DNA of 42,464 nt, taken from the NCBI RefSeq assembly GCF_001936595.1, contig NZ_MLBG01000026.1:1-42464 (forward strand), read 5' to 3'. Each line of letters starts with the position of its first letter. The stretch's first letter is position 1. This stretch comes from Desulfovibrio sp. DV (GTDB taxonomy: Bacteria; Desulfobacterota; Desulfovibrionia; Desulfovibrionales; Desulfovibrionaceae). Shown here in pieces: positions 5,600 to 20,470 of this stretch. The position numbers were made by a program, and so were the translations under genes. The notes under the pieces were generated by a model. That model did not search any database and was not told the DNA's origin. It saw only the letters and a list, made by a program, of their open reading frames with translations.

Positions 5600-6181
5600 T
5601 CAGGCGCAGTCGTGCTTGTCCCAGGGTTCGCGGTTGTCGCGCTGGAGCGCGGCTTCCATGCGGGAGAGGGCTTCCCTGAGCTTGCCCAGTTCGGTCAGCT
5701 TCAGGTTGGTTTCCTTGAGGGCCTGATAGAGAATGGCTCCGGTGGCGTCGTCGGGCAGGGGCAGATCGGCGATGTGGGCCAGGGTCGGCGTCACATCCCT
5801 GGCCTGGGCCGGCCGGGCCATGGTCCCGATCTTGGTGTTGATGCCAAGGCCGTAAAACACCAGGGCGTTGGCCGCAGCCAAAACCACCAGGGTGCGCCGG
5901 TCGGCAATCTCCAGCACGTGCCCCAGGGCCGTTTCCAGGCCGGCCGCATCAGGCTCGCCGAGATCGACCAGGACGAGTCCGGCCCCGGCTTCCAGGCTGG
6001 CGGCCAGATCGGCCAGCCCGGCCATCACCGCGCCGGGCACCCGCCGGGCCTCGCCGGCCACGTCGCCGCCGCTGTAGGCCGTGGCCACCACGCCCTTTTT
6101 CGTGAATTTCTTGAGCGCATTGCCGCCATTGCCCAGCGACACGTCCCCGGCCAGCAACAGGACCACCTTTTTCTCAGCCAC
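5600..6181 (-). CDS. Degenerate alkaline-phosphatase-superfamily protein (copy A)
   Basis: A protein of 193 residues, paralogous to 9528-10109. Its second half follows the C-terminal half of the full-length phosphatase at 10194-12092. RDVTPTLAHIADLP and DDATGAILYQALKE align with ADIVPTLCYMTGNP and DAEGGPMYQIMED. RTLVVLAAANALVFYG aligns with the enzyme's ALVCLCSDHGATPIG, so the metal-binding Asp-His is replaced by Ala-Asn. The nucleophile region is missing altogether. It is therefore probably not a hydrolase. It ends in a charged helical segment and the tail NREPWDKHDCA, whose penultimate Cys is the only cysteine in the protein. The start is the GTG at 6181 with AAGGAG 7 nt upstream, giving exactly the same length as copy B; a GTG at 6199 would begin inside the ribosome binding site. 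It is divergent from OsmC copy A. Confidence 0.75.
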   Translation of the reverse strand: MAEKKVVLLLAGDVSLGNGGNALKKFTKKGVVATAYSGGDVAGEARRVPGAVMAGLADLAASLEAGAGLVLVDLGEPDAAGLETALGHVLEIADRRTLVVLAAANALVFYGLGINTKIGTMARPAQARDVTPTLAHIADLPLPDDATGAILYQALKETNLKLTELGKLREALSRMEAALQRDNREPWDKHDCA

Positions 6182-6333
6182 GTCCGTACTCCTTCCCACG
6201 TTTCAGCCGCATCCAAGCCGGCCGTTAAGTTTTCCACTTCTGGCCCGGTTCTCCGGGCTTCCTGCCCTTCCAACCCCTGTCGCACGTCCCGGGGCGGTCG
6301 GCCCGGCGCACGTGCGCCAGGCGCTGCCCCTTT

Positions 6334-6352
6334 TCCAAAAAGCGGGCCAATG
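6334..6352. repeat. 19-bp element shared by both modules (copy A)
   Basis: TCCAAAAAGCGGGCCAATG occurs identically at 12258-12276, at nearly the same distance (about 153 and 166 nt) upstream of the leftward phosphatase-family genes of the two modules. A degenerate third copy lies at 12537-12552. The surrounding sequence has diverged, so conservation suggests a regulatory site. Confidence 0.55.
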
Positions 6353-6431
6353 GCGATTGTCGCCTTCAGAGCTGGGAAATGGAGGGGCCAGAGCGGGCCG
6401 GGCCGGCGGCAGCCAAGGGCCGGGGGCGACG

Positions 6432-6486
6432 AATGTTTCGCCTTTTTGGGCAGGAAATCCGTAACACGCTTATTTAAAAGAATTTA
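6432..6486. promoter_or_regulatory. AT-rich block conserved between the two modules (copy A)
   Basis: This block shares an ordered set of words with 12367-12418: AATGT, TCGCCTTT, TCCGTAA, then ATTTAAA(A)GAA followed by T-rich sequence. It is the only AT-rich patch in a GC-rich region and lies upstream of both divergent genes. It probably contains the promoter of the leftward gene or a binding site for a shared regulator. No clean -35/-10 pair could be assigned. Confidence 0.45.
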
Positions 6487-6562
6487 TCGCGGACGACACA
6501 AAGGGATGAAAAAGCGTCATGCCTGTCGCATCAGGGATGACACCTGCGTCGCAGAAAGGTGC

Positions 6563-6602
6563 CGCCCCGGATTCGGGGCAGGAGAGACTCGAATCCGGGG
6601 CG
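6563..6602. repeat. 13-bp inverted repeat
   Basis: The arms CGCCCCGGATTCG (6563-6575) and CGAATCCGGGGCG (6590-6602) are perfectly complementary around a 14-nt spacer. It lies about 190-230 bp upstream of the predicted sigma-54 start, so it could be an activator site, a terminator for upstream transcription, or an RNA hairpin. No U-tract follows. Confidence 0.5.
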
Positions 6603-6766: not shown

Positions 6767-6782
6767 TGGCACAGCCGTTGCT
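6767..6782 (+). promoter_or_regulatory. Sigma-54-type promoter of the OsmC-DsrHEF cassette A
   Basis: TGGCACAGCCGTTGCT matches the sigma-54 consensus at essentially all conserved positions (TGGCAC, then TTGCT, with correct GG-to-GC spacing). The predicted start near 6793 leaves a 133-nt leader before the OsmC ATG at 6926. The paralogous cassette has an equivalent site at 12757-12772. Confidence 0.8.
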
Positions 6783-6925
6783 TTTGCCGCAAGCGCACGT
6801 CGCCGATCCCGGGGCAAGGCCGGGGCAACCCGGTCGTTGCCGTCAACCGTCATTGTGGCCGCCGCCACCCCCGGCAGCCGGACAAGCCCGAGGGCGGGAA
6901 AGCCGCCCCGACCAAGGAGTTCCCC

Positions 6926-7360
6926 ATGTCCGAGACCATGACCCTGACTTTTGCCCGCGAGACCGATGCAGCCTGGAAAATCGAAACCGGTTCCCTGGCC
7001 CTGCCTGTGATCGCCTACGACAACAGCGCCCTGTCGGCCGAGGGAAAAGGCAATGAGCACTTCGGCGGCCGGCTTCTCGTGGCTGCGGCCATCGCCTGCT
7101 ACACCAACTCCCTGTGGAACGACATCAAACGCGCCGCCGGCAGGCCCGTGCGCATGACGGCCACGGCCACGGTCAGCAAGGAAAAGACCGACTCCATGCG
7201 CACGGCCTTCACCCACATCGACCTGCGCGTGGACGTCAGCGCCGAGGACCTGGATGAGGCCTCCTTCGACACCATCCAAAGCGCGCTCTATCGCGGCTCC
7301 CTGGTCACCTACTCCCTGGAGGAGGGCCTGGAGTTCGACTACGAGATCAACCGCATCTAA
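6926..7360 (+). CDS. OsmC-family protein, copy A
   Basis: A protein of 144 residues, the usual length of OsmC/Ohr-type proteins. It has the N-terminal beta part (MTLTFARETDAAWKIE) and the central helix carrying the family cysteine (AAAIACYTNSLWNDIK, Cys58), followed by the second beta-alpha half. Classical OsmC/Ohr peroxidases use two cysteines; here Cys58 is the only one. A dithiol peroxidase cycle is therefore unlikely without a partner thiol, and a role in persulfide or thiol handling fits the DsrE/F/H neighbours better (inference). The ATG at 6926 has AAGGAG 8 nt upstream. It leads a tightly packed four-gene operon behind a sigma-54-type promoter. Confidence 0.85.
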   Translation: MSETMTLTFARETDAAWKIETGSLALPVIAYDNSALSAEGKGNEHFGGRLLVAAAIACYTNSLWNDIKRAAGRPVRMTATATVSKEKTDSMRTAFTHIDLRVDVSAEDLDEASFDTIQSALYRGSLVTYSLEEGLEFDYEINRI

Positions 7361-7374
7361 CCGGAGGCCGAACC

Positions 7375-7656
7375 ATGCTGTTTTTGCTGCATACGTCCCG
7401 CACCGAGGGACTGGAGGAATTGCGCATCCTGGGCGGGGACGAGGACAAGGCCGTGCTGCTGGTGGGCGATGCGGTCTATCTCGGCCTGCCCGGCCAGGTG
7501 GATGTTTTTGAGACCCTTGGCGTGGATGCGGTGTTCGCGGCCAGGGACGCCGTGTCCGTCCGGGGCGTGGTCCCGGCCGAGGCCGTGGCCGTGCTTGGCT
7601 ACGACGGCATGGCCAAACTGATCCTGGACGACCATGACCAGGTCATAAGCCTGTAG
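7375..7656 (+). CDS. DsrH/TusB-like protein, copy A
   Basis: A protein of 93 residues. MLFLLHTSRTEGLEELRIL at the start, the central KAVLLVGDAVYLG, and the ending MAKLILDDHDQVISL follow the pattern of DsrH/TusB, the smallest subunit of the DsrEFH/TusBCD sulfur-relay hexamers. Position 12 is Gly; the paralogue at 13364 has Cys there, and this copy has no cysteine at all, so it cannot itself carry a persulfide. It lies 14 nt after OsmC and 8 nt before DsrE. It is the most diverged member between the two cassettes (about 70 per cent identity), which may reflect specialisation. Confidence 0.75.
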   Translation: MLFLLHTSRTEGLEELRILGGDEDKAVLLVGDAVYLGLPGQVDVFETLGVDAVFAARDAVSVRGVVPAEAVAVLGYDGMAKLILDDHDQVISL

Positions 7657-7664
7657 GAGCCGCC

Positions 7665-8063
7665 ATGTCCCGCACACTGACCATCGCGCTGCTCTCGGGC
7701 AGCACCGAAAACGACGACGCGGCCTTTGTCGTGAACCTCGCCCGGGCCGTGCTGGCCCGGGGCGACGCAGTCAACGTCTTTCTCTACGGCAACGGCTGCA
7801 ACCTGGCCAACAAGCCCGTGCCCTTTGACGGACGCTCCCCCATCTCCGACGCCCTGCGCGGGCATATGGACGGTTTCGTCCTGGCCGGGGCCATCGAGGA
7901 ACTTGCTGCAGCCGGGGCGAAATTCGCCACCTGCCACACCACGGAATACAGCCGCGGCACCGAGGGTCTGGCCTATCTCGACGGCGTGGCCTGGGGCGAC
8001 GTGGGCAATTCCTACACCCGCTTTCTCATGAGCACCGACGTGCTCCTGACCATCGGCCGCTAG
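7665..8063 (+). CDS. DsrE/TusD-like sulfur-relay protein, copy A
   Basis: A protein of 132 residues with a DsrE-type Rossmann-like fold. It shows the first strand and loop (TLTIALLSGSTENDDAA), the strand VNVFLYGNGCNLAN and a later segment AKFATCHTTEYSRGTEG. Cys45 and Cys90 are the candidate thiols; in DsrE/TusD the sulfur-accepting Cys lies in the position of the second. DsrE/TusD proteins pass persulfide sulfur to a DsrC/TusE-type carrier. It is nearly identical (128/132) to the copy at 13654. No dsrC/tusE gene or dissimilatory sulfite reductase gene is in the window, so the acceptor is unknown. Confidence 0.8.
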   Translation: MSRTLTIALLSGSTENDDAAFVVNLARAVLARGDAVNVFLYGNGCNLANKPVPFDGRSPISDALRGHMDGFVLAGAIEELAAAGAKFATCHTTEYSRGTEGLAYLDGVAWGDVGNSYTRFLMSTDVLLTIGR

Positions 8064-8076
8064 GAGGGAGACAGAC

Positions 8077-8412
8077 ATGCTTTCAACGATCAACGTCGTG
8101 CTGCGCCAGGCTCCGGGCCAGGAAGCGTCCGTGCTCGGCATCCGGGCCGCCTACGCCATGTTGACGGCCGGGGGCTTTGACGTGCGCCTGCTGTGCCTGG
8201 GTGACGGCGTCTACAACCTGCTGGGCGTTCCCGGTTATCCGGGCGATTTGGTGCGCCGCTTCGCCGCCGAGGGCGGCACGCTCCACGCCCATGACGAGGC
8301 TCTGGACGCCCGTGGCCTTAGCGGGGCTGCCCTGGAGCCGGGGACGGAGGTGCTCGACGCGGCGGCCATGGCCGATCTCGTGGCCGACGCCGAAGCCACC
8401 ACCGCCTACTGA
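8077..8412 (+). CDS. DsrF/TusC-like sulfur-relay protein, copy A
   Basis: A protein of 111 residues resembling DsrF/TusC. It shows NVVLRQAPGQEASVLGIR, then a strand and loop FDVRLLCLGDGVYNLLG, and an ending (ADLVADAEATTAY) typical of the family's last helix and strand. Cys40 lies in the strand before GDGV and is the only cysteine. AGGAGGGAGA precedes the ATG. It is the last gene of cassette A: its stop overlaps the stop of the convergent YitT gene by 7 nt, and no ABC transporter follows here, unlike cassette B. Confidence 0.8.
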   Translation: MLSTINVVLRQAPGQEASVLGIRAAYAMLTAGGFDVRLLCLGDGVYNLLGVPGYPGDLVRRFAAEGGTLHAHDEALDARGLSGAALEPGTEVLDAAAMADLVADAEATTAY

Positions 8413-9335
8413 CCCCGGTTGCGGCCGGACCCGGCCGGTTTGGCCCGCCGGGTCCGGCCGGCCGGGGTGATGCCGTCTGGCCGGCCGAAGCCGCCGCCGA
8501 TGACGTTGAAGGTGTTTTCCACCACGAACAGGGCCTGGGGATCGATCTCGAACACCATGTCTTCCAGCACCTTGACCTGCATGTTGTGGGTGATGGAAAA
8601 GAGAATCTCGACCTCCCCGCCCGAATAGCCGCCGCGGCCCTGCATGATGGTGCCGCCGAGGCTCGTTTCCGAGGCCAGCCGCTGGCTGATCTCCCGAGTG
8701 CGCGAGGAGATGATCCAGACCGCCTTGCGCTGGTTGAACACCGACAGCACGTATTCCGTCACCACCGAGCAGAGGAACTGCAGCACAATGGAGGCCACCA
8801 CCAGATCCGGCTCCATGCGCGCGGCCGTGCCCAGCATGATCAGCCCGTTGACCAGGAAGTAAAACACCCCGTAGCGCAGGCCAAAGCGGCGGTTGAGCAT
8901 GAAGGCCAGGACATCCAGGCCCCCGCCGGCCCCGCTCGAACGCAGGATGATGCCGCAGCCGGCCCCCATGACCGCGCCCGAGGCAATGGCGGCATGGAGC
9001 CGGTCCTGGATGCCGAAGTCCGGGTGGAGCAGGGCGGTCAGGACGGCAATGAGGCCCATGCAGTAGAGGTTGAGCAGGAAAAACCGCTTGCCCACGGCCC
9101 GCAGGGCCAAAAGAAACACCGGCGCGTTGAACAGGACGTACCAGACGGCCGTGGACAGGCCGCCTCCGGCGTCGTGGACCAGGGCGGCCAGGCCATAGAG
9201 GCCTCCGGGCACGAAGCGTTGGCTGGCGGCGATGCCGTTATAGCCCAGGACATAGACGAGGCTGCCCACGGTCAGAAGGGTCAGGCTCCAGAGCAGGGAA
9301 TGGGGTGCAGGCTGTTTTTTCTGATCTTTTTTCAT
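8406..9335 (-). CDS. YitT-family membrane protein (DUF2179 C-terminus)
   Basis: A protein of 309 residues. About five to six transmembrane helices fill residues 15-190 (for example LLTVGSLVYVLGYNGIA and GIILRSSGAGGGLDVLAF), followed by a soluble domain with VWIISSRTREISQRL, GRGGYSGGEVEILF and FEIDPQALFVVENTFNV. This layout is that of the YitT family with a DUF2179 domain, whose molecular function is not established. The C-terminus is extended by an Arg/Gly-rich tail. It converges with DsrF copy A, overlapping by 7 nt. It lies downstream of the second degenerate phosphatase gene on the same strand, with a perfect palindrome in the gap, so it may or may not belong to that transcript. Confidence 0.85.
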   Translation of the reverse strand: MKKDQKKQPAPHSLLWSLTLLTVGSLVYVLGYNGIAASQRFVPGGLYGLAALVHDAGGGLSTAVWYVLFNAPVFLLALRAVGKRFFLLNLYCMGLIAVLTALLHPDFGIQDRLHAAIASGAVMGAGCGIILRSSGAGGGLDVLAFMLNRRFGLRYGVFYFLVNGLIMLGTAARMEPDLVVASIVLQFLCSVVTEYVLSVFNQRKAVWIISSRTREISQRLASETSLGGTIMQGRGGYSGGEVEILFSITHNMQVKVLEDMVFEIDPQALFVVENTFNVIGGGFGRPDGITPAGRTRRAKPAGSGRNRGQ

Positions 9336-9527: not shown

Positions 9528-10109
9528 CTAGGCGCAGTCGTGCTTGTCCCAGGGTTCGCGGTTGTCGCGCTGGAGGGCGGCTTCCATGCGGGAGAGGGCT
9601 TCCTTGAGCTTGCCCAGTTCGGTCAGCTTCAGGTTGGTCTCCTTGAGCACCTGATACAGGATCGCGCCGGTGGCGTCGTCGGCCAGGGGCAGATCGGCGA
9701 TGTGGGCCAGGGTCGGCACCACATCCCTGGCACAGGCGGCGCGCTCGATGGAGCCGATCTTGGTGTTGATGCCAAGGCCGTAAAAGGCCAGGAGATTGTT
9801 TGCGGCCAGCACCACCAGGGTGCGCCGGTCAGCGGCTTCCAGGGCGGCGGCCACGGCCGCGTTGACGGCCTCGGGAGCCGCGTCGCCCATCTCCACCAGC
9901 ACCAGGGCCGCCCCGTCTTCCAGGGCCTTGGCCACCCCGTCCGGCCCGGCCGTCACGGCTCCGGGAACGCGCCTGGCCTCGCCGGCCACGTCGCCGGCCG
10001 TGTAGTTGGCGGCGACAACGGCCTTTTTCTTGAATTTCTTCAGGGCATCGCCGCCGGCGTCCAGCGACGCCTGGTCTGCCAGCAGCACAATGACTTTCTT
10101 CTCGGCCAT
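9528..10109 (-). CDS. Degenerate alkaline-phosphatase-superfamily protein (copy B)
   Basis: A protein of 193 residues, paralogous to 5600-6181 and the same length. TLVVLAANNLLAFYGLG replaces the phosphatase segment carrying the metal-binding SDH, so Asp-His has become Asn-Asn or Ala-Asn. RDVVPTLAHIADLP and DDATGAILYQVLKE preserve the C-terminal fold signature. The tail NREPWDKHDCA is identical in the two copies; Cys192 is penultimate, and this copy has one further Cys (in ERAACARD). The ATG at 10109 has AAGGAG 6 nt upstream. It starts 84 nt downstream of the full-length phosphatase on the same strand and is probably co-transcribed, so the intact and degenerate proteins may form a complex. The degenerate type is kept in both modules, whereas the intact enzyme is present only here. 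Confidence 0.75.
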   Translation of the reverse strand: MAEKKVIVLLADQASLDAGGDALKKFKKKAVVAANYTAGDVAGEARRVPGAVTAGPDGVAKALEDGAALVLVEMGDAAPEAVNAAVAAALEAADRRTLVVLAANNLLAFYGLGINTKIGSIERAACARDVVPTLAHIADLPLADDATGAILYQVLKETNLKLTELGKLKEALSRMEAALQRDNREPWDKHDCA

Positions 10110-10193: not shown

Positions 10194-12092
10194 CTATTTC
10201 CCGGCGGTGACCAGGTTGGGGTCTTCCATGATCTGGTACATGGGGCCGCCCTCGGCATCGGCCGGGATGGGATTGCCGGTCATGTAGCAAAGGGTCGGCA
10301 CGATGTCGGCCAGCCAGCGCGGCCGCTCGTAGCGGTAGCCCTTTTTGACGTTGGGGCCTTTGAAGATGAGGACGTTTTTGAGCGAGCCGCAGCCGGATTC
10401 GCCGGTGGGCAGGCCATAGCCGTGCTCGGCCATGTACTCGGGCTTGAGGGCATAGACCACGTCCCCGGCCTGGGCTCCGCCCATGCCGAAGACCCGGGCG
10501 TCCTCCTTGCGAACGGCCAGGAGCACCGGACGTTCCCCGGTGTCGGGATGGCGGTAGTCGAGCAGGGCGTCGATGATCTCGTCGCGCACCGTCTCGTAGT
10601 CCGCGGCCTCCACGATGCCGCCGGGGTACTTATCCTTGAGGTTGACGTAGACGAACATGTAGCGCTGGGGCACGGCCTTGGATTTGGTCACGTCCAGGGT
10701 GTAGTTGTAGCCTTCGGATTCCTCGTAGATTTCCCAGTAGTTTTCCGTGGCCTTGGGCTCGTAGTGGCAAAGGCCGGCGGCCTTGAGGGCCTCGGCCGTG
10801 TTGAGGATGGGGCCGATGGGCGTGGCGCCGTGGTCGGAGCACAGGCACACGAGGGCCTCCTCGCCGATGGCCTCCATGAGCCGGCCCAGGAGGCGGTCCT
10901 CGATCTGGTAGATGGCCCGCTCCATGTCGTAGGCGCGCTGGCGCTTGGCCTCGTCGGCGCTGTCCATGTCGGCCAGCCAACCGTGGTAGAACCAGTCGAT
11001 CAGGTGGGTGTGCATGTAAAAGAGGTCCCAGTCGGGATTGGCGGCCAGGGTCGAGGTGGCCACGCTCACCAGCCAGTCGCTGTGGTACTGGGCCACTTCG
11101 ACCACGGTCTCCATGTCGATGACGCCGTGGATGAAGGCCACCAGTCCCATGTCGTTGCAGATGACCTCGTTTGACAGGTCGAGCTGGGCGGCCGCCTCGG
11201 GCGGGGACACGAAGCCCTTTTGGCCGGAGATGCCGGTGACGTAGAGCTTGAAGCTCTCGGCGTCGTCGGACAGTTCCAGGAGCTTTAAGCGAAACGTGCC
11301 CGTTTCCGTGCGCCCGTCGGCCTTGATGGTGAAAGGCGCGCTCACCACCGGGCTCCACTGGCCTTTTTGGATGGTGCAATAGGCCGTGGCATAGTCCCGC
11401 TCGGGGCACAGGGCGAAGGTGTCAAAGCCGTCGTCGCCCGATTCCCAGGCCAGGGCGTACCAGGTCTGGTTCTCCAGCGGGTCCATGGATTCCTTAAACG
11501 TCATGGGGATCACGGCTTCGACCAGCTCGTCGGCCCCTTCGGGCAGGTTCTTCCAGCCCTTGGCGTCGTCGAAGCGGGCCTGGACGCCCATGGGATAGAA
11601 GTCCGAGGACACCACCGACTCCGAGGCCAGGTATTCCTTGTGGGCGTTGCCGAGCTGCTTCCAGCGGGTCTCGGCCGGGGACAGGCCTTCGCCCATGATC
11701 ATGACCCCGTTTTGCATCTTGCTTGGCCAGGACATGGGGTAGTTTATGACCAGACACTTCTTGCCCTGCTTGTCCCAGGCGTCCCAGATGGTCTCGGCCG
11801 TGAGGATGGCCGAACCAAAGGCCTGGCAGGTCTTTTTGTGCTCCAGGCTCTCGCCTTCCAGGTAATAGTAATAGTCTTCCACGCCGTGGGTCCTGGGATA
11901 GGCCCCGGTGCAGATGGTGGCCCAGGAGGGCGGTGTGACGGTCGGCAGGTTGTAGCCTTCCGTCATGTAGCTGCCGCTGTTGATGAACCTGGCGAAGTTG
12001 GGCAGGGCGCCTTCGGCCACCAGGGCCTCCAGGCGTTTGGGGATGGCGCAGTCGAAACCGATCAGGGCGGCCTTGCGGGCGATATTTTTCAT
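10194..12092 (-). CDS. Alkaline phosphatase superfamily hydrolase (type I phosphodiesterase/phosphatase-like), cytoplasmic
   Basis: A protein of 632 residues with the metal-site framework of the AlkP superfamily. It shows ALIGFDCAIP with Asp14, the nucleophile segment LPTVTPPSWATICTGAYP with probable nucleophile Thr53, then MHTHLIDWFYHG (Asp and His), CLCSDHGATP (Asp-His) and AEHGYGLPTG (His), and the C-terminal ADIVPTLCYMTGNPIPADAEG. All expected ligands therefore appear to be present. No signal peptide is seen, so it should act in the cytoplasm on a phosphate, phosphonate or sulfate ester. The start is the ATG at 12092 (AAGGAAG upstream); an ATG at 12113 would add seven residues. It is divergent from OsmC copy B, with shared regulatory elements between. 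The substrate is unknown, but the neighbouring importer probably delivers it. Confidence 0.85.
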   Translation of the reverse strand: MKNIARKAALIGFDCAIPKRLEALVAEGALPNFARFINSGSYMTEGYNLPTVTPPSWATICTGAYPRTHGVEDYYYYLEGESLEHKKTCQAFGSAILTAETIWDAWDKQGKKCLVINYPMSWPSKMQNGVMIMGEGLSPAETRWKQLGNAHKEYLASESVVSSDFYPMGVQARFDDAKGWKNLPEGADELVEAVIPMTFKESMDPLENQTWYALAWESGDDGFDTFALCPERDYATAYCTIQKGQWSPVVSAPFTIKADGRTETGTFRLKLLELSDDAESFKLYVTGISGQKGFVSPPEAAAQLDLSNEVICNDMGLVAFIHGVIDMETVVEVAQYHSDWLVSVATSTLAANPDWDLFYMHTHLIDWFYHGWLADMDSADEAKRQRAYDMERAIYQIEDRLLGRLMEAIGEEALVCLCSDHGATPIGPILNTAEALKAAGLCHYEPKATENYWEIYEESEGYNYTLDVTKSKAVPQRYMFVYVNLKDKYPGGIVEAADYETVRDEIIDALLDYRHPDTGERPVLLAVRKEDARVFGMGGAQAGDVVYALKPEYMAEHGYGLPTGESGCGSLKNVLIFKGPNVKKGYRYERPRWLADIVPTLCYMTGNPIPADAEGGPMYQIMEDPNLVTAGK

Positions 12093-12257: not shown

Positions 12258-12276
12258 TCCAAAAAGCGGGCCAATG
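12258..12276. repeat. 19-bp element shared by both modules (copy B)
   Basis: Identical to 6334-6352. It lies 166 nt upstream of the phosphatase start codon. A related sequence, AAAAATCGGGCCAGTG, is at 12537-12552. Confidence 0.55.
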
Positions 12277-12366
12277 CCGCAACAGCGGCCTTTTCCCTCG
12301 GCTCTCCGACCGGATTGCGGCTTTTTTCCCGAAAGCCGGTCCGTCCCGGCCGGCCCAGGCGTCGGG

Positions 12367-12756: not shown

Positions 12757-12772
12757 TGGCATACGCCTTGCT
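12757..12772 (+). promoter_or_regulatory. Sigma-54-type promoter of OsmC-DsrHEF-ABC operon B
   Basis: TGGCATACGCCTTGCT has the invariant GG and GC at correct spacing and a perfect TTGCT. The predicted start near 12783 leaves about 120 nt before the ATG at 12903. It is the equivalent of 6767-6782 in module A. Confidence 0.8.
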
Positions 12773-12902: not shown

Positions 12903-13337
12903 ATGTCGGAAACAATGACACTGACGTTCGCCCGCGAAACCGACGCGGCCTGGAAAATCGAAACCGGTTCCCTGGCCCTGCCTGTGATCGCCTACGACAA
13001 CAGCGCCCTGTCGGCCGAGGACAAGGGCAACGAACACTTCGGCGGCCGGCTTCTCGTGGCCGCAGCCATCGCCTGCTACACCAACTCCCTTTGGAACGAC
13101 ATCAAGCGCGCCGCCGGCAAGCCCGTGCGCCTGACGGCCACGGCCACGGTCAGCAAGGAAAAGACCGATTCCATGCGCACGGCCTTTACCCACATCGACC
13201 TGCGCCTGGACGTCAGTGCCGAGGATCTGGACGAGGCCGCTTTCGACACCATGCAAAGCGCACTCTATCGCGGCTCTCTGGTCACCTATTCCATGGAAGA
13301 GGGCATCGAGTTCGACTACGAGATCAACCGCGTCTAG
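12903..13337 (+). CDS. OsmC-family protein, copy B
   Basis: A protein of 144 residues differing from copy A at nine positions, mostly conservative. It keeps the single Cys58 in AAAIACYTNSLWNDIK and has no second cysteine, so it also lacks the resolving partner of classical OsmC peroxidases. The ATG at 12903 follows AAAGGAG about 11 nt upstream. It leads the operon that includes DsrH/E/F-like genes and then a complete ABC importer, which suggests that it works on a product of the imported compound (inference). Distinguishing persulfide chemistry from hydroperoxide reduction needs biochemistry. Confidence 0.85.
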   Translation: MSETMTLTFARETDAAWKIETGSLALPVIAYDNSALSAEDKGNEHFGGRLLVAAAIACYTNSLWNDIKRAAGKPVRLTATATVSKEKTDSMRTAFTHIDLRLDVSAEDLDEAAFDTMQSALYRGSLVTYSMEEGIEFDYEINRV

Positions 13338-13363
13338 GACGCCGGTTTGGGGGAGAGGGAATT

Positions 13364-13645
13364 ATGCTGTTTTTACTGAATAAATCCAGAAAGGACTGTC
13401 TGGAGGAGCTGCGAATCCTGGGCGGGGACGAGGACAAGGCCGTGCTGCTCGTGGGCGACGCGGTCTACCTCGGCCTGCCCGGACAGGCCGGCGCCTTTGA
13501 GAATCTGGGTGTGGACGAGGTGTTCGCCGATGCCGATTCCGCCGCCGCCCGGGGCGTGGCCCTGGACGATTCGGTGGCCGCAGTCGGCTTTGAGCGCATG
13601 GCCCGGCTCATCATGGACGATCACGACCAGGTCATAAGCCTGTAG
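13364..13645 (+). CDS. DsrH/TusB-like protein, copy B
   Basis: A protein of 93 residues. MLFLLNKSRKDCLEELRIL resembles the start of DsrH/TusB more closely than copy A does. Cys12 is present here and replaced by Gly in copy A; DsrH proteins carry a Cys in the comparable helix. The middle (residues about 40-85) differs strongly from copy A, while the ending DDHDQVISL is identical. The 26-nt gap after OsmC is longer than in cassette A and contains GGGGGAGAGG as ribosome binding site. Only this copy could carry sulfur on its own thiol. Confidence 0.75.
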   Translation: MLFLLNKSRKDCLEELRILGGDEDKAVLLVGDAVYLGLPGQAGAFENLGVDEVFADADSAAARGVALDDSVAAVGFERMARLIMDDHDQVISL

Positions 13646-13653
13646 GAGCCGCC

Positions 13654-14052
13654 ATGTCCCGCACACTGACCATCGCGCTGCTCTCGGGCAGCACTGAAAA
13701 CGACGACGCGGCCTTTGTCCTCAAATTGGCCCGGGCCGTGCTGGCCCGGGGCGACGCGGTCAACGTCTTTCTCTACGGCAACGGCTGCAATCTGGCCAAC
13801 AAGCCCGTGCCCTTTGACGGACGCTCCCCCATCTCCGACGCCCTGCGCCAGCATATGGACGGTTACGTCCTGGCCGGAGCCATCGAGGAACTTGCTGCAG
13901 CCGGGGCGAAATTCGCCACCTGCCACACCACGGAATACAGCCGGGGCACCGAGGGCCTGGCCTATCTCGACGGCGTGGCCTGGGGCGACGTGGGCAATTC
14001 CTACACCCGCTTTCTCATGAGCACCGACGTGCTCCTGACCATCGGCCGCTAG
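13654..14052 (+). CDS. DsrE/TusD-like sulfur-relay protein, copy B
   Basis: A protein of 132 residues, 128 identical to copy A, with the same Cys45 and Cys90 and the CHTTEYSRGTEG motif. The differences lie in two helices (LKLARAVL; RQHMDGY). The 8-nt gap before it and the ribosome binding site TAGGAGCCGCC are identical to copy A. With the DsrH and DsrF copies it would form an alpha2-beta2-gamma2 type sulfur-relay complex if it behaves like DsrEFH/TusBCD. Subunits of the two cassettes are similar enough to mix. Confidence 0.8.
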   Translation: MSRTLTIALLSGSTENDDAAFVLKLARAVLARGDAVNVFLYGNGCNLANKPVPFDGRSPISDALRQHMDGYVLAGAIEELAAAGAKFATCHTTEYSRGTEGLAYLDGVAWGDVGNSYTRFLMSTDVLLTIGR

Positions 14053-14065
14053 GAAGGAGACCGAC

Positions 14066-14401
14066 ATGCTCTCAACGATCAACGTCGTGCTGCGCCAGGC
14101 TCCGGGCCAGGAAGCGTCCGTGCTCGGCATCCGGGCCGCCTACGCCATGCTGACGGCCGGGGGCTTTGACGTGCGCCTGCTGTGCCTGGGCGACGGCGTC
14201 TACAACCTGCTGGGCGTTCCCGGCTATCCGGGCGATCTGCTGCGCCGCTTCGCCGCCGAGGGCGGCACGCTGCATGCCCATGACGAGGCTCTGGCCGAGC
14301 GCGGCATCGCCGCAACCGCCCTGGAGGCAGGGACGGAAGCGCTGGACGCGGCGGCCTTGGCCGACCTCGTGGCCGACGCCGAGGCCACCACCGCCTATTA
14401 A
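14066..14401 (+). CDS. DsrF/TusC-like sulfur-relay protein, copy B
   Basis: A protein of 111 residues. The first 57 are identical to copy A, including Cys40 in VRLLCLGDGVYNLLG. Most of the differences fall in residues 77-98, a helical segment after HAHDEAL. The gene is followed by 51 nt without a terminator and then the ABC ATPase gene, so cassette and transporter appear to form one transcription unit. Confidence 0.8.
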   Translation: MLSTINVVLRQAPGQEASVLGIRAAYAMLTAGGFDVRLLCLGDGVYNLLGVPGYPGDLLRRFAAEGGTLHAHDEALAERGIAATALEAGTEALDAAALADLVADAEATTAY

Positions 14402-14452: not shown

Positions 14453-15208
14453 GTGGCACACTGTACGACGCCAAGACCGAAAATCCAGGTCAGCAATTTC
14501 ACCAAGCGCTACGGCGACCTGACCGTTCTCGACAATATCCACTTCGACATCAGGGAAGGGGAGCTGGTCAGCATCGTCGGGCCCACAGGCTGCGGCAAGA
14601 CCACCTTTCTCAACTGCATGTCCAAGCTGACCGAAACCACCGAAGGCAACATCTTCATCGACGGCGAAGTGGCCAACCCCGTCAAGCACAACCTGGCCTT
14701 CGTCTTCCAGGAGCCGACGGCCCTGCCCTGGCGCACCGTCAGACAGAACGTGGCCTACGGCATGGAGGTCAAGAAGTTCCCCAGGGACGAACTGCAAAAG
14801 CGCCTGGACTACATCTTAAACCTCGTCGGCCTGGAAGACACCGCCGATCTCTATCCCAACCAGATTTCGGCCAGCATGATGCAGCGTATTGCCGTGGCCC
14901 GGGCCTTTGCCGTCAACCCGGACCTGCTGCTCATGGACGAACCCTACGGCCAGCTCGACGTCAAGCTGCGCTTTTATCTCGAAGACGAGCTGGTCAAGCT
15001 CTGGCAGACGCTCAAAAGCACGGTCCTGTTCGTCACCCACAACATCGAAGAAGCGGTCTACGTGGCCGAGCGCATCATCGTGCTGACGCCCAAGCCCACC
15101 AAGGTGCGGGCCGAAGTCGTGGTCGATCTGCCGCGTCCCAGAAACTTCCTGGACCCCAAGTTCATCGAAATCCGCCGGCACGTCACCGATCTCATCCGTT
15201 GGTGGTGA
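14453..15208 (+). CDS. ABC importer ATPase 1, nitrate/sulfonate/taurine type, degenerate signature motif
   Basis: A protein of 251 residues of the NrtD/SsuB/TauB type. Walker A is GPTGCGKTT, the Q-loop VFQEPTALPW, Walker B LLLMDEPYGQLD and the H-loop FVTHNIEEA. The signature motif, normally LSGGMRQR, reads ISASMMQR, so both signature glycines are lost. The second ATPase of this operon (16945) has an intact signature but lacks the H-loop histidine. Paired as a heterodimer they would give one complete and one dead ATP site. The GTG at 14453 has GAGGAG upstream. It continues directly from cassette B, and its permease follows 30 nt later. Confidence 0.9.
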   Translation: MAHCTTPRPKIQVSNFTKRYGDLTVLDNIHFDIREGELVSIVGPTGCGKTTFLNCMSKLTETTEGNIFIDGEVANPVKHNLAFVFQEPTALPWRTVRQNVAYGMEVKKFPRDELQKRLDYILNLVGLEDTADLYPNQISASMMQRIAVARAFAVNPDLLLMDEPYGQLDVKLRFYLEDELVKLWQTLKSTVLFVTHNIEEAVYVAERIIVLTPKPTKVRAEVVVDLPRPRNFLDPKFIEIRRHVTDLIRWW

Positions 15209-15238
15209 TCGCGGTCCACGGCATAGGAGTGATGCACC

Positions 15239-16048: not shown

Positions 16049-16051
16049 GCC

Positions 16052-16909
16052 ATGAGCGACACCGCTGCATCCGTCTGCAATGAAGTCATCGTGCGGGGGC
16101 CGGCCAAGCGCCGCATCACCCTGGCCTCGGTCCTTCGCAACGAATACTTCCTCAACACCGTGTCCCTGCTCCTGTTTTTCGGGCTGTGGCACTGGGCTGC
16201 GGCCAGCCGGGTGCTTGGCACCTCAAGCGCCCTGGCCACGCCCTTTGAAGTCGTCGTGCGCCTGCAGGAGCTTTTCACCTCCACCCTGGCCGGCCTGACC
16301 ATGTGGGGCCACATCTTCGCCAGCCTGCGCCGGGTGCTCATCGGCTTTATCATCGCCGCCGCCCTGGGCGTGCCCCTGGGGCTGATCATGGCCCTTAATC
16401 CCTACGTCAACGCCGTGGTCAAGCCCATCGTCGACATCTTCAAGCCCATGCCGCCCCTGGCCTGGATCTCCGTGGCCATCCTGTGGTTCGGCATCCAGGA
16501 GATGCCCAAGATCTTCATCATCGTCATCGGCTCCTTTGTCCCGGCCCTGTTGAATGCCTACAACAGCGTCCTTTTGATCGAACCGGAACTCTACGACGTG
16601 GTGCGGGTCATGGGCGGTGGACGCTGGAACGAGGTCAAGCAGGTGTGCATTCCGGCCTCGCTGCCGGCCATCTCTGCCGGCCTGCAGATTGCCCTGTCCA
16701 GCGCCTGGGGCTGCGTCCTGGCCGCCGAACTGGTCAGCTCCCGTTCCGGCCTGGGCTACATCATCATCCAGGGCATGAAGGTGTCCGATCCGGCCATGGT
16801 GCTTGGCGGCATGGCCGTCATTGCGGTCATCGCCTGGCTGATGTCCCGGGCCATGGACGCCCTGGACCGCAAGCTGTGCCCCTGGCGCCGCGAAATCAAG
16901 GATCTCTAG
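16052..16909 (+). CDS. ABC importer permease 2 (SsuC/TauC/NrtB type)
   Basis: A protein of 285 residues with six predicted membrane helices. The family segment VKPIVDIFKPMPPLAWISV and the docking loop VRVMGGGRWNEVKQVCIPAS are present. It has a longer N-terminal cytoplasmic part than permease 1 and only the general family similarity to it. Two different permeases and two different ATPases in one operon are less usual for this importer class, which generally has one of each working as homodimers. Starts 3 nt after permease 1, with GGAGAT as ribosome binding site. Confidence 0.9.
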   Translation: MSDTAASVCNEVIVRGPAKRRITLASVLRNEYFLNTVSLLLFFGLWHWAAASRVLGTSSALATPFEVVVRLQELFTSTLAGLTMWGHIFASLRRVLIGFIIAAALGVPLGLIMALNPYVNAVVKPIVDIFKPMPPLAWISVAILWFGIQEMPKIFIIVIGSFVPALLNAYNSVLLIEPELYDVVRVMGGGRWNEVKQVCIPASLPAISAGLQIALSSAWGCVLAAELVSSRSGLGYIIIQGMKVSDPAMVLGGMAVIAVIAWLMSRAMDALDRKLCPWRREIKDL

Positions 16910-16944
16910 ACCCGCCCCGGCGCGGCTACTGAAGGGATAGAACC

Positions 16945-17727: not shown

Positions 17728-17786
17728 TGGCGGCCATCCCGGACGCGCGGCGCGTCCCTCAACCCGTAACTGTTCGGAGGTTGTGT

Positions 17787-18857
17787 ATGAGACGGTATCT
17801 CGCCCTCGCCCTGACCCTGGCCTTCGTCCTGGCCCAGGCCATACCCGCCCTGGCCCAGGACAAGCCGGTCAAGGTGCCGACCTGCTGGATGGATTCCTCG
17901 GAAGCATTCAATATCTGGTATGCCAAGAAAAAGGGATGGGACAAGGAAGAGGGGCTCGACCTGGAAATGCTCATGTTCGGCAGCGGTCCGGCCCAGATGG
18001 AGGCCCTGCCGGCCAAGCAGTGGGTCATGGGCGGCACCGGCGTTGGCGGCGTGCTCATCGGCGGGATGCGCTACGACATCTCGCTTCTGGCCCCGGCCAT
18101 CGACGAGGCCGAGGTCAATGCCTTCTACGTCCGCGCCGACAGCCCGATTTTAAAGACCAAGGGCTTTAACCCCGCCTATCCCGACGTGTACGGCAGCCCT
18201 GAATCCGTCAAGGGCAAGACCATCCTGCTCACCTCCCAGACCACGGTCCATTATATCGTCGGCAAGTGGCTGGAAATCCTTGGCCTCAAGGAAAGCGACG
18301 TCAAGATCACCAACATGGAGCAGCCCTCCATCGTGGCCGCCTTTGAAAAGGGCATCGGCGACGTGGCCTCGGTGTGGGCGCCGTTCACCTTCACCTGCGA
18401 ATCGCGCGGCTGGGTCAAGGCCGGCTCCACCGGCACGACCAAGGCCAATACCGCAACCGTCCTGGTTGGCGACAAGAAGTGGTGCGAGGCCAATCCCCAG
18501 TTGGTGGCCAAGTTCCTGCGCGTCTACTTCCGCGTCTCCGACGTCATGCGCAAGGAAGGTCCCTCGCCCGAAATGGTCAAGGCCTACCAGGAATTCATGA
18601 ACGACTTCTGCGGCACCAAGATGAGCGCCGAGGACGCCAAAAAGGAGATGGAAGTCCATCCGCGTTGGACCCTGGCCGAGGCGATCAAGCTCAGTGCCGG
18701 CGACAACGATTCCCCCATTGCCAAGTGGCAGGTCCAGGCCGCCGCGTTTTTCACCTCCATGGGCCGTTTTTCCCCGGCCGAACTGGAAAAGTTCAAAAAG
18801 ACCGATCTGGTCACCGACAAATACCTGAAGATCGCTGCTGAAAAGCCCCTGCCCTAG
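17787..18857 (+). CDS. ABC importer substrate-binding protein (NMT1/SsuA/TauA-like), exported
   Basis: A protein of 356 residues with a Sec signal peptide (residues 1-24, cleavage after ALA in AIPALAQDK). The mature protein follows the periplasmic binding fold of nitrate/sulfonate/taurine receptors: PTCWMDSSEAFNIWYAKKK near the start, then an EEGLDLEM region, and KGKTILLTSQTTVHYIVGK in the middle. GGAGG lies 6 nt before the ATG at 17787. It is the receptor for the importer encoded just upstream. Ligand identity cannot be read from sequence; a small sulfonate- or carboxylate-like anion is the family expectation. Confidence 0.9.
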   Translation: MRRYLALALTLAFVLAQAIPALAQDKPVKVPTCWMDSSEAFNIWYAKKKGWDKEEGLDLEMLMFGSGPAQMEALPAKQWVMGGTGVGGVLIGGMRYDISLLAPAIDEAEVNAFYVRADSPILKTKGFNPAYPDVYGSPESVKGKTILLTSQTTVHYIVGKWLEILGLKESDVKITNMEQPSIVAAFEKGIGDVASVWAPFTFTCESRGWVKAGSTGTTKANTATVLVGDKKWCEANPQLVAKFLRVYFRVSDVMRKEGPSPEMVKAYQEFMNDFCGTKMSAEDAKKEMEVHPRWTLAEAIKLSAGDNDSPIAKWQVQAAAFFTSMGRFSPAELEKFKKTDLVTDKYLKIAAEKPLP

Positions 18858-18929
18858 CCCGGCCCGGCAACAGCGGCGCTTCCGGTATTTCCGACGTCCA
18901 CGGCCTGCCGGCGAATCCCCGCCACGATG

Positions 18930-18962
18930 CCCCGCCGGCCGGCAACTGGCCGGCCGGCGGGG
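18930..18962 (+). repeat. Strong GC hairpin between binding protein and porin
   Basis: Arms of 14 nt (CCCCGCCGGCCGGC at 18930-18943 with its complement at 18949-18962) flank a 5-nt loop. There is no T run, so rather than ending transcription it may stabilise the upstream messenger or lower porin expression. It lies 35 nt before the porin start. Confidence 0.5.
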
Positions 18963-18997
18963 TGTGCCCCGAACCCCTGTCAATTGGAGGATGGATG

Positions 18998-20470
18998 ATG
19001 CGACGTCTTTCCCTGCTCGTCCTGGTGGCCGCCCTGACCCTGGCCACAACGGCTGCCCGGGCCGCAACAGAAGTGCGCATGGTGGGCGATGCCCTGGTTT
19101 ACGGCAACTATTTCGCCAAACAAAACTTCACCGGCTGGAGCGGCCCGTCCTGGAACAACAACGTTCCCACCTGGACCGGGGCCGGCCAGCAGACCGAGGA
19201 CCGCTTCCAGATCTGGGAACGGTTCCGCGTGCGCGCCGACTTCGTGGCCAACGAGGCCGTCAAGTTTCGCCTGGGCACCCGGGTTCTGGACACCTGGGGC
19301 CATGGCACCCTGACCGCGGCCAACCCCACGGTCTCCATCTCTGTGTATCAGGCCTATCTGCAGTTCAAGCTGCCCGGCAGCGACGTGGAGGTCACGGCCG
19401 GCCTGCAGGACCTGTCCCTGCCGGCCAACGAATTCTTCTGCGACTCCGTGGTCTTCGGCGGCGACCGGGCCGCCGGGCTGGTCGTGCGCGCCCCGCTCAT
19501 CAACGACACCCTGGGCATCTCCGCCGGCTATGCCCGGCTTATTGACACCAACAAGACCTACGACACCACCACCACCCAGGTGTCTGACGAGCTCGACCTG
19601 TACTTCCTGGCCCTGCCCGTGACCGGCCAGGGGTTCACCACCACGCCCTGGGCTGCTGTGAGCGTGGCCGGCCGCGACGCCGCCTACTTCACCAACTACT
19701 CCTACGCCAACACGACCTTTGCCGAGAACCTGCTTTCGGCCGGGACGCTCCTGTCCCCGACCAAGTGGAAGAACAGCCAGAACCCGTACTTCTGGGCCGG
19801 CGACACCTTCCAGATCACGGCTCTTGATCCGATCAAGTTCTACGGCGATGTGGTCTACGGGGCCGGAGCGGTCAACGACCGCAAAAAAAGCAAGCGCGAA
19901 GGCTGGTTCGTCGACCTTGGCGCCGAGTACACCGGCTTTACCATGGTCACCCCCCAGGCCTTTGGCTGGTGGTCCACCGGTGAGGACAGCTCCACCAGAA
20001 ACGGCAGCGAACGCCTGCCCATCCTGGAATCGAGCTGGGGACCGGGCAACAGCTTCCTGTTCGACACCACCCAGGACCTGTACATGAACAGCAACATGGG
20101 CATGAGCATCGTTGGCAACTGGGGTCTTGGCGCCTCCCTGGACAAGATCTCCTTTGTCGAAAAACTCACCCATCGCCTGACCTTCATGTACGTCCACGGC
20201 AACAACTCTTCCAAGGCCATCCGCAACCTCAACACCCTGCTCGGCAGCAATCCCTACTTCCAGATGGGCCATGACCTGACCAGCGACGAGCATGTCATGT
20301 CGGTCAACTTCGACAACAAATACCAGATTTACGAAAGTCTGGCCCTGCTTCTCGAAACCGGCTGGGCCCATGGCGAGTTCCAGAAAAGCGTGTGGGGACG
20401 CCGCCTGGTCAATGCCTCGCGCGACGGCGACTCCCTCAAGGTGGCCTTTGGCCTCAAGTACCGCTTCTAG
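18998..20470 (+). CDS. Outer membrane homotrimeric porin, Desulfovibrio type
   Basis: A protein of 490 residues with a signal peptide (LSLLVLVAALTLATTAARA) and a mature protein made of beta strands ending in an aromatic residue (LKVAFGLKYRF), as outer-membrane barrels do. VRMVGDALVYGNYFAKQNF at the mature N-terminus, then IWERFRVRADF and VYQAYLQFK, are characteristic of the porin family common in Desulfovibrio. ATG 18998 has GGAGG 7 nt upstream; ATG 18995 is the alternative. It ends the importer operon and probably lets its substrate cross the outer membrane. A UUCG hairpin follows the stop. Confidence 0.9.
   Translation: MRRLSLLVLVAALTLATTAARAATEVRMVGDALVYGNYFAKQNFTGWSGPSWNNNVPTWTGAGQQTEDRFQIWERFRVRADFVANEAVKFRLGTRVLDTWGHGTLTAANPTVSISVYQAYLQFKLPGSDVEVTAGLQDLSLPANEFFCDSVVFGGDRAAGLVVRAPLINDTLGISAGYARLIDTNKTYDTTTTQVSDELDLYFLALPVTGQGFTTTPWAAVSVAGRDAAYFTNYSYANTTFAENLLSAGTLLSPTKWKNSQNPYFWAGDTFQITALDPIKFYGDVVYGAGAVNDRKKSKREGWFVDLGAEYTGFTMVTPQAFGWWSTGEDSSTRNGSERLPILESSWGPGNSFLFDTTQDLYMNSNMGMSIVGNWGLGASLDKISFVEKLTHRLTFMYVHGNNSSKAIRNLNTLLGSNPYFQMGHDLTSDEHVMSVNFDNKYQIYESLALLLETGWAHGEFQKSVWGRRLVNASRDGDSLKVAFGLKYRF

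Follow-up and report, generated by a model that had tools for sequence, protein, structure and literature searches.

We analyzed a 42,464-nucleotide contig of Desulfovibrio sp. DV (NZ_MLBG01000026.1 in assembly GCF_001936595.1), and "the window" below means this whole stretch. Positions 5600 to 20470 encode an enzyme of the alkaline phosphatase superfamily (AlkP) that resembles the nucleotide pyrophosphatase/phosphodiesterases (NPPs), two copies of a small protein that we call sAlk, two cassettes of the same four genes (osmC, dsrH, dsrE, and dsrF), an ATP-binding cassette (ABC) importer, and a porin. Tentatively, we propose that these genes make up a catabolic system not described before, present here in duplicate, whose steps lead from import to sulfite. 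Genomes, contigs, and loci are labeled with G, C, and L numbers (the window's genome is G000), and paired values such as 27.1/49.2 give a bit score and the model's cut-off. The features of the region are:

5600..6181, - strand: sAlk1, a degenerate AlkP-fold protein of 193 amino acids from a GTG start, ending in REPWDKHDCA (a longer frame, which likewise starts with GTG, reaches 6199)
6334..6355: 22-bp element upstream of sAlk1, common to 12258-12279
6767..6782, + strand: exact sigma-54 consensus TGGCAC-N5-TTGCT, upstream of osmC1
6926..7360, + strand: osmC1; PF02566 25.3/27.5; Cys58 kept, Ser125 at the position of the second Cys
7375..7656, + strand: dsrH1-like gene; TusB/DsrH 27.1/49.2
7665..8063, + strand: dsrE1-like gene; PF02635 19.7/22.7; has the invariant Cys90
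8077..8412, + strand: dsrF1-like gene; PF02635 29.1 bits, above cut-off
8406..9335, - strand: YitT-family membrane protein between the two copies; PF02588 156 bits; a recurring neighbor
9528..10109, - strand: sAlk2, 193 amino acids, the tail-carrying partner of AlkP, located behind it
10194..12092, - strand: AlkP, full-length (632 amino acids), NPP-like, tail-less; PF01663 97 bits, cut-off 23
12258..12279: 22-bp element upstream of AlkP, common to 6334-6355
12757..12772, + strand: exact sigma-54 consensus TGGCAT-N5-TTGCT, upstream of osmC2
12903..13337, + strand: osmC2; TIGR03562 27.9/85.8; Ser in place of the second Cys
13364..13645, + strand: dsrH2-like gene; TIGR03011 33.1/49.2
13654..14052, + strand: dsrE2-like gene; PF02635 23.7 bits, above cut-off
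14066..14401, + strand: dsrF2-like gene; PF02635 32.1 bits, above cut-off
14453..15208, + strand: importer ATPase 1; SaoA is the nearest NCBIfam model; 88% identity to its counterparts in L038 and L039
15239..16048, + strand: importer permease 1; PF00528; nearest models SaoP (143.5/295) and TauC (137 bits)
16052..16909, + strand: importer permease 2; PF00528
16945..17727, + strand: importer ATPase 2; PF00005
17787..18857, + strand: periplasmic substrate-binding protein (SBP) of the SsuA/TauA superfamily; matches a taurine-binding protein in the PDB at E 5e-11
18962..20470, + strand: outer-membrane porin, DESULF_POR1; NF033939 371/250

An earlier note on this sequence had described two collinear four-gene cassettes, and this is confirmed: osmC1-dsrH1-dsrE1-dsrF1 (6926-8412, copy A) and osmC2-dsrH2-dsrE2-dsrF2 (12903-14401, copy B) are both on the + strand, and the copies of OsmC, DsrH, DsrE, and DsrF share 94%, 70%, 97%, and 91% amino acid identity. 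As also claimed, copy B runs on into an ATPase, two permeases, another ATPase, and the SBP (14453-18857), and then the porin. The leftward genes are not one equivalent family as the note had it: copy A faces sAlk1, and copy B faces the full-length AlkP with sAlk2 behind it. In G060 and G094 (L038 and L039), the same genes are present in single copy (in the order EamA-family transporter, sigma-54 activator, YitT, sAlk, AlkP, and a divergent OsmC-DsrHEF with the same ABC importer). Compared to these loci, the window has an additional sAlk-OsmC-DsrHEF block between the activator and YitT, which suggests that copy A arose by partial tandem duplication, without AlkP.

Sigma-54-type promoters had been suggested, and exact matches to TGGCAYN5TTGCW do end 144 bp before the start of osmC1 and 131 bp before the start of osmC2. 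There are 3 exact matches in the window, against 0.10 expected, and only 1 of 100 shuffles reached 3. Across loci, the density of exact matches rises about tenfold upstream of module genes, yet they are present in only 11 of 88 loci and in 2 of 57 regions upstream of OsmC, so sigma-54 control is not a defining feature. The claim of shared intergenic elements comes down to one 22-bp element, which is 21/22 identical (score 39, while 50 shuffles reached at most 30); nothing further exceeds chance. On the - strand, the element at 6334-6355 includes a sigma-54-like match with two mismatches, a class of match that is no commoner than chance.

Three patterns in the system are striking, and the first concerns the C-terminus of AlkP. 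Long AlkPs (about 656-686 amino acids) end in (R/K)(E/Q)PW(D/E)(K/H)H(D/E)CA or a near variant. AlkPs with a sAlk gene nearby stop short of this tail, and sAlk ends in it (PW.KHDC). Among 88 AlkPs, 65 are tail-less and have sAlk within 6 kb, 15 have the tail and no sAlk, none has both, and 8 have neither. (The 88 are distinct AlkPs, the window not counted, that score at least 350 bits against our own profile and whose C-terminus is not at a contig end; the set excludes weaker AlkP-like matches, among them L149 and L156-L158, as well as AlkPs truncated at a contig end. The tail pattern also takes in the degenerate KKDDAP of L130 and L131 and a variant in L140.) Three of the eight AlkPs with neither have just 128, 74, and 834 bases of contig after the gene (L093, L115, and L124), and in L146 the tail is present in another frame, which implies a frameshift. 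The tail is missing in L130 (third copy), L145, L154, and L155. On a quick AlkP tree (82 rows, with support from the Shimodaira-Hasegawa-like approximate likelihood ratio test only), one change between the fused and split forms is needed.

The tail of sAlk is also conserved. P186, W187, K189, H190, D191, and C192 are invariant in 35 sequences, while the mean column identity of the body is 43%. The two sAlks of the window are 73% identical paralogs. They match no Pfam family at E 1, and sAlk2 can be aligned to AlkP over the C-terminal ~57 residues only. Among solved structures, arylsulfatases and other proteins of the AlkP fold come closest to sAlk, with weak matches (best E 8e-4). The AlphaFold model of sAlk2 has a mean predicted local distance difference test (pLDDT) score of 94.4, falling to 71 and 58 in the last two blocks, which hold the tail. 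We are fairly confident that this is a split enzyme whose tail is supplied in trans by sAlk. The economical reading of the sequences is that sAlk is a degenerate copy of AlkP that was kept to present the tail, and the two proteins would form a complex. Some Chloroflexi AlkP copies have KKDDAP where KHECA would be expected, and Dehalococcoidia have up to five AlkP paralogs (L130, L138, and contigs C55, C70, and C16 of G582).

In AlkP itself, D14, T53, D366, H370, D420, H421, and H557 are invariant across 11 sequences. The D14 and T51/T53 regions align to PhnA, and the T51/T53 region also aligns to NPP1; this weak local alignment reached only the first two residue groups (D14 and the Thr motif). 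We take D14 to be the first metal-binding Asp, and T51/T53 to be the Thr nucleophile motif, of the NPP/PhnA type; the remaining invariant residues are candidates for the second Asp/His pair, the Asp-His-Gly motif, and the C-terminal His of this type. The PhnA and PafA models score far below their cut-offs (28.7/407.55 and 26.6/650). The structural model of a long AlkP (mean pLDDT 87.0, and 47-66 in the tail) matches NPPs at Z about 30. In this comparison (VIA-align), NPPs including ENPP6 and ENPP7 with bound phosphocholine are on top at Z 29-31; NPP, ENPP6/7, and PafA are tied and hence not separated, and PhnA is outside the best 50 matches listed, which is not counter-evidence. AlkP shares with NPP-type proteins (PF01663; Xac NPP, ENPP6/7, PhnA) the fold (over 340-360 residues for NPPs), the Thr motif, and candidate metal residues. 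Unlike them, it has 630-660 amino acids, has a C-terminal Cys tail that is either part of the enzyme or carried by a degenerate paralog, and is read as cytoplasmic because its sequence opens directly with the first strand of the fold (no signal-peptide predictor was used). We also considered that AlkP might be a formylglycine sulfatase, but the nucleophile motif of those enzymes (C/S-x-P-x-R) is absent, and the site is an invariant PT.TPP.

The second pattern is the choice of cassette. Sixty of the 88 AlkPs have OsmC within 10 kb, along with dsrE in 18 cases, with Lpd and/or gcvH in 28, with both in none, and with neither in 14. Cys58 of OsmC is invariant in 62/62 sequences (both window copies included). 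The position of the second Cys (125) is C in all 27 OsmCs beside Lpd/GcvH and S in all 21 beside DsrHEF; in the 14 others, it is C (9), T (4), or a gap (1). OsmC splits into two clades along this difference (2 steps for C/S/T), so the difference is one old event. On the AlkP tree, the cassette partner changes 5 times (as many as the starred branches force; 45 of the 82 rows are labeled), so two ready-made cassettes were repeatedly exchanged behind one enzyme. We think that the DsrHEF and Lpd/GcvH cassettes are probably functionally equivalent. The matching chemistry has precedents on both sides: lipoylated proteins reduce OsmC, and OsmC/Ohr proteins are lipoyl-dependent peroxidases (PMC8945050), while a DsrE homolog carries and passes a Cys-S-thiosulfonate, and its cluster is flanked by a Lpd gene (PMC4175335).

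The cassette proteins of the window score below the cut-offs of the curated families. For copy A, the TusB, TusC, and TusD scores are 27.1/49.2, 16.2/94.15, and 14.2/89.25; for copy B, DsrH scores 33.1/49.2, and DsrE and DsrF have no match at 1e-3. Both OsmCs have Ser125 in place of the second redox Cys of OsmC/Ohr (27.9/85.8). Cys90 of DsrE is invariant in 21/21, and its position suggests that it is catalytic; the window's DsrH lacks the Cys that is present in 16 of 20 DsrHs. As for the other cassette, we considered that GcvH and Lpd serve glycine cleavage only. GcvP was found in 12/13 genomes of one set and 13/16 of a second (G183 and G841 are the same place, so 12/15 genomes). No GcvP was found in G212, a single-contig genome with OsmC-Lpd-GcvH-CutC, or in three metagenome-assembled genomes (MAGs; G840, G842, and G846), which weakly rejects this idea. 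A LipA-like gene lies beside OsmC-Lpd-GcvH in L043, L045, L046, and L058, and a LipB-like gene in L045 and L046 as well (both were named by eye), as if lipoylation were supplied locally.

The neighborhood recurs in other genomes, as the earlier note had asked to be checked. The system is found in many anaerobic bacteria of several lineages, with its gene order reshuffled. Of 199 genomes sampled from the family, 42 have a match to sAlk2, and these represent 15 of 44 genera (in two of the 42, G028 and G135, the match is only to the tail of a fused AlkP). In the same-genus sample of 14 genomes, only G000 has sAlk. The AlkP profile has a match at 1e-40 in 11 of 395 genomes sampled from the phylum. 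A scan of named genomes gave 63 loci, of which 35 are titled Desulfovibrionaceae or its genera; the others are from Desulfomicrobium, unplaced 'Deltaproteobacteria', Desulfobacterales, Desulfarculus, Chloroflexi/Dehalococcoidia, and one Peptococcaceae (27% identity), with a weak match in Smithella. A search of the open-licence PubMed Central (PMC) literature, as far as its text was accessible, found no description of an AlkP-sAlk-OsmC system.

The third pattern is that the importer varies. Within 10 kb of the 88 AlkPs, 49 have only a betaine/choline/carnitine transporter (BCCT), 10 an ABC permease, 7 a tripartite ATP-independent periplasmic (TRAP) transporter, 2 both BCCT and TRAP, and 20 none of these; by parsimony, the importer changes 4 times on the AlkP tree (65 labeled rows of 82). 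The window's SBP is below the cut-offs for SsuA_fam (71.6/163.5) and taurine_ABC_bnd (54.2/304.25) and belongs to superfamily PF09084. A compact run of permease, TauA-like SBP, ATPase, AlkP, and sAlk recurs in L113, L116 (the same place as L153), L118, L120, L121, and L134; these SBPs were spotted by a short motif, or in one case by NCBIfam, and on the taurine model the L134 SBP is at 178/304. We take the 'Deltaproteobacteria' MAGs with this run to be from termite guts, given their isolate codes. Of the module BCCTs, 49/56 fit our pattern for the aromatic motif and read mostly WT(I/V)FYAL(W/F).., which presumably differs from the motif of betaine carriers. In Desulfobacterales L143 and L144, sAlk and AlkP are together with BCCT, Lpd, and GcvH. 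Upstream of sAlk in L143 is a 467-amino-acid MttB-family methyltransferase; L144 has a gene of similar size there. We considered a link to isethionate or to dihydroxypropanesulfonate (DHPS), but neither generalizes: one glycyl radical enzyme (L115) is above the cut-off for the HpsG-type DHPS dehydratase, and another (L075) fits no model above its cut-off.

Many carriers also encode the choline lyase CutC, which is above cut-off in 30 of 42 genomes with the system and 15 of 157 others (Fisher p 4e-15, ignoring kinship). In seven loci (L103, L104, L107, L109, L110, L111, and L152), OsmC, Lpd (not in L104), GcvH, and a CutC-like enzyme are on one strand. (The enzyme of L103 is above the CutC cut-off, and the rest were called with our own profile; L103 and L107 have near-identical AlkPs.) In G094, one contig holds both sAlk and CutC, some 9 kb apart, with microcompartment genes beyond CutC. 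G000 has a CutC-type choline trimethylamine-lyase and its activase at the very start of contig C9 (G000:C9:3-2216, L164), and it is also the only one of the 14 same-genus genomes with CutC.

The earlier note stated that no sulfite reductase or DsrC gene is near. This holds for dsrA, which in G000 has two matches outside the window (C22:22272-23516 and C31:38338-39582); dsrC was not searched for. Among 12 chosen genomes, dsrA is present in 9 (five of seven Chloroflexi, Desulfarculus, the genomes of L143 and L147, and the Peptococcaceae) and was not found in those of L130 and L133 or with the weak Smithella match. Six of the Chloroflexi have an AlkP that is tailed or truncated at a contig end, and 4 of these contain dsrA; the seventh, L145, whose AlkP lacks the Cys tail, contains it as well. 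Within the class to which one Chloroflexi carrier belongs, dsrA (at 1e-60) is in 8 of 245 genomes including the carrier, and AlkP is in the carrier alone (1/245); the enrichment is 4/6 against 7/244 (Fisher p 3e-5, kinship again ignored). Of 24 chosen genomes, 7 have aprA (for adenylylsulfate reductase) above cut-off, 2 have it below cut-off, and 15 have none. Leaving out the Peptococcaceae, 11 of the 14 system genomes without aprA have dsrA (it is missing in G170, G577, and G579), so sulfite fits better as the product than sulfate does. Tail-less outgroup AlkPs occur both with dsrA (G317) and without it (G344). The dsrA matches of G578, G580, G581, G582, G615, G633, and G670 include an in-frame stop (two in G615), perhaps the natural end of the gene.

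What was first noted is real and wider than it seemed, and its meaning has changed: of the 'phosphatase' genes that looked like repeats, one encodes the enzyme, and the others encode the tail that was detached from it. We propose that the porin and the importer bring in a small zwitterionic compound that probably contains sulfur; we are evenly divided as to whether the substrate is indeed an organosulfur compound. The context of the relatives (BCCT, CutC, and sulfite reductase) points to a quaternary amine or sulfonate-like zwitterion, and perhaps to sulfite. A cytoplasmic AlkP, as an NPP-like bimetal enzyme, would act as one enzyme with sAlk, which would give the flexible tail PW(D/E)KHDCA in trans where other lineages carry it in cis. 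The tail Cys would accept the group released at the metal site, which we suggest is a sulfuryl group, as Cys-S-SO3-. OsmC, with a single redox Cys in the window, would then take over the adduct or the oxidizing equivalents, and DsrE, as part of DsrHEF, would clear OsmC; in other genomes, where OsmC has two Cys, lipoyl-GcvH and Lpd would do so. The product would be sulfite, respired by DsrAB, and like the chain as a whole, this is a tentative proposal. Thiol or sulfur chemistry of some kind is likely, given the invariant Cys in the tail, OsmC, and DsrE. Of the mechanisms proposed, the path from tail Cys to OsmC to DsrE or lipoyl to sulfite is the one in which all conserved parts have a use. A more specific version, which we rate as rather unlikely, is that the tail takes the sulfuryl group from an imported sulfate ester or sulfonate, that either OsmC relay frees sulfite directly and independently of ATP, and that the carbon serves as electron donor (choline via CutC). 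Choline-O-sulfate is our leading guess for a single substrate, and a long shot.

Many observations weigh against this proposal. The Thr and the two metal sites are a phosphoryl-transfer layout, the structures tied at the top are mostly phosphodiesterases, and known sulfatases of this fold use formylglycine. The tail has low confidence in the models of both AlkP and sAlk, so its contact with the metal site would be conjectural, and 2 of the 15 counted tails are degenerate and lack the Cys (KKDDAP in second copies of L130 and L131). Given the two OsmC clades, the 48 Cys/Ser cases are not independent, and GcvH may not be dedicated to the system, given that most genomes examined encode GcvP elsewhere. 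Twelve of the 42 system genomes lack CutC, and 15 others have CutC without the system. The other seven dsrA-containing genomes of the Chloroflexi class lack AlkP. Of the six Chloroflexi with a tailed or truncated AlkP, two have no dsrA, and this set is small and made up of relatives. The Peptococcaceae homolog comes with dsrA, with no aprA, and with neither tail nor sAlk. Finally, dsrA is lacking in all six genomes with the importer-AlkP-sAlk run that were searched (G525 and those of L113, L118, L120, L121, and L134), and the 9-22 kb around those six loci contain no OsmC, DsrHEF, or Lpd/GcvH gene. We therefore reject the idea that every carrier respires sulfite, and the core enzyme must be useful without sulfite respiration.

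The metal site makes a phosphorus substrate a serious rival. AlkP-sAlk could act on a zwitterion (for example, phosphocholine, glycerophosphocholine, or an aminoethylphosphonate betaine) as a phosphodiesterase of the NPP type or as a phosphonate hydrolase, with OsmC and DsrHEF or the lipoyl proteins keeping the tail Cys reduced or handling an electrophile. The invariant candidate metal and Thr residues and the match to the choline-specific ENPP6 and ENPP7 would be explained, a choline product would suit the BCCT and CutC neighbors, and the genomes that have only importer-AlkP-sAlk, without dsrA, would make sense. However, this leaves the TauA-like importers and the dsrA enrichment in Chloroflexi unexplained, and it gives no reason for keeping a Cys tail and two alternative thiol cassettes. 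We consider it possible but doubtful.

The earlier note read the region as uptake, hydrolysis, and then persulfide handling. Its first part is plausible, and importer, phosphatase-fold enzyme, and OsmC-DsrHEF do form one recurring unit. Persulfide handling by DsrEFH is not obligatory, since Lpd/GcvH replaces DsrHEF in other genomes. A broader form is that sulfane sulfur from an imported organosulfur compound lands on Cys residues (of the tail, then OsmC, then DsrE) and passes as persulfide to DsrC or is reduced to sulfide by lipoyl-GcvH/Lpd. The invariant Cys90 of DsrE and Cys58 of OsmC agree with this, a single-Cys OsmC would fit a persulfide relay, and lipoyl carriers take part in sulfur oxidation elsewhere (PMC6067878). 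But an AlkP-type site is not expected to free sulfane sulfur, the window's DsrH lacks the common Cys, and general scans of the window's genes, which were not aimed at these families, found no TusA, rhodanese, or DsrC. We consider this form unlikely.

It is less likely still that the OsmC cassettes are protective adjuncts (peroxide or electrophile defense) of an oxygen-sensitive choline or sulfonate metabolism, outside the AlkP reaction. OsmC/Ohr proteins are peroxidases, glycyl radical enzymes are nearby, and the six importer-AlkP-sAlk loci have no cassette gene; against this, exclusive cassettes were swapped five times on the AlkP tree, and Ser for the second Cys would be expected to cripple a two-Cys peroxidase. 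That these are separate sigma-54-controlled uptake, phosphatase, and sulfur-relay genes traveling together is very improbable: sigma-54 activators do lie within 10 kb of 43 of the 65 AlkPs with sAlk in our locus survey, but the association spans several lineages and reshuffled orders, tail and sAlk are complementary, and the cassettes are exclusive.

Returning to the proposed route from the tail Cys to sulfite, one of the closest known systems is CysH (PAPS/APS reductase), which has a flexible C-terminal tail whose catalytic Cys forms Cys-S-SO3-, and a thiol protein reduces this to sulfite. The folds are unrelated; here the tail belongs to an enzyme of the AlkP type, and OsmC would act as reductant together with DsrE or lipoyl-GcvH. 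The system has sulfite respirers, TauABC or TRAP importers, and some host lineages in common with organosulfonate respiration in Bilophila and Taurinivorans (Tpa, Xsc, IslAB; PMC10507020). In contrast, there is no IslA or Xsc among the module neighbors scanned (Xsc was not searched by name). BCCT carriers and CutC are reported for Bilophila, and the module genes are not among the terms found in the accessible parts of that paper (PMC7593587). For marine Desulfatiglans, it was proposed that sulfate esters supply a sulfidogen with both carbon and an electron acceptor, but with formylglycine sulfatases and their maturases, and with sulfate released (PMC6129605). The sHdr-LbpA pathway of sulfur oxidation also joins DsrE-type and GcvH-like lipoyl proteins (and Lpd, in archaea), but those parts co-occur with an Hdr-like complex (PMC6067878), and here DsrHEF and Lpd/GcvH are alternatives beside OsmC; Hdr was not searched for. 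For ATPase 1 and permease 1, the NCBIfam models that come nearest are from the SAO organometal system (PMC13188914), but we reject it, as SaoA (227.3/360) and SaoP (143.5/295) are below their cut-offs. No other Sao model is among the matches listed (the best 25 of 198 for ATPase 1; ATPase 2 and permease 2 were outside the NCBIfam scan).

The flanking genes include:

287-2488: methyl-accepting chemotaxis protein that adjoins the module; similar long proteins (not scanned for families) are near AlkP in L039 and L073-L075
2793..3818, - strand: EamA-family transporter; PF00892; the same neighbor is in L038, L039, and others
4038..5498, + strand: PAS-AAA-Fis sigma-54 activator; PF00158 207 bits, HTH_8; a recurring neighbor
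20548..22389, + strand: histidine kinase with an SBP domain (SBP_bac_3, HisKA, HATPase); putative link to the module
22386..23798, + strand: sigma-54 response regulator, partner of the kinase (Response_reg, Sigma54_activat)

Next to the kinase-regulator pair are an FMN (flavin mononucleotide)-dependent dehydrogenase (784 amino acids) and then a multihaem cytochrome/b561 protein (23851-28082). At 28261-30189 is a 642-amino-acid protein whose match to DUF4231 is just below the cut-off (23.8/24.7).

One carrier of the cassette may already have been studied. G039 is a single contig with 42.9% GC in the stretch examined, with aprA only below cut-off, and with dsrA. It resembles Taurinivorans muris LT0009, which has 43.6% GC and AprAB without Sat and QmoAB (PMC10507020), and we infer that they may be the same. 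If so, the dsrEFH genes that were called enigmatic in T. muris are probably this cassette. In T. muris, DsrEFH was transcribed but was not found in the proteome on taurine, sulfolactate, or thiosulfate (PMC10507020). This would speak against those compounds as strong inducers, and it is a further point against our proposal.

According to a review, the genomes of canonical sulfate-reducer lineages overwhelmingly lack DsrEFH (PMC10591310), and the genes were termed enigmatic in T. muris, a taurine respirer from the mouse gut (PMC10507020). The system offers a testable role for DsrEFH-like genes in sulfite-respiring anaerobes. It also provides a case in which the tail of an enzyme has moved to a degenerate sister protein, and in which one thiol cassette can stand in for the other, with OsmC differing accordingly. 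Should the product be sulfite, then sulfite respirers of the gut and of marine environments would have a source of electron acceptor that present annotation would miss.

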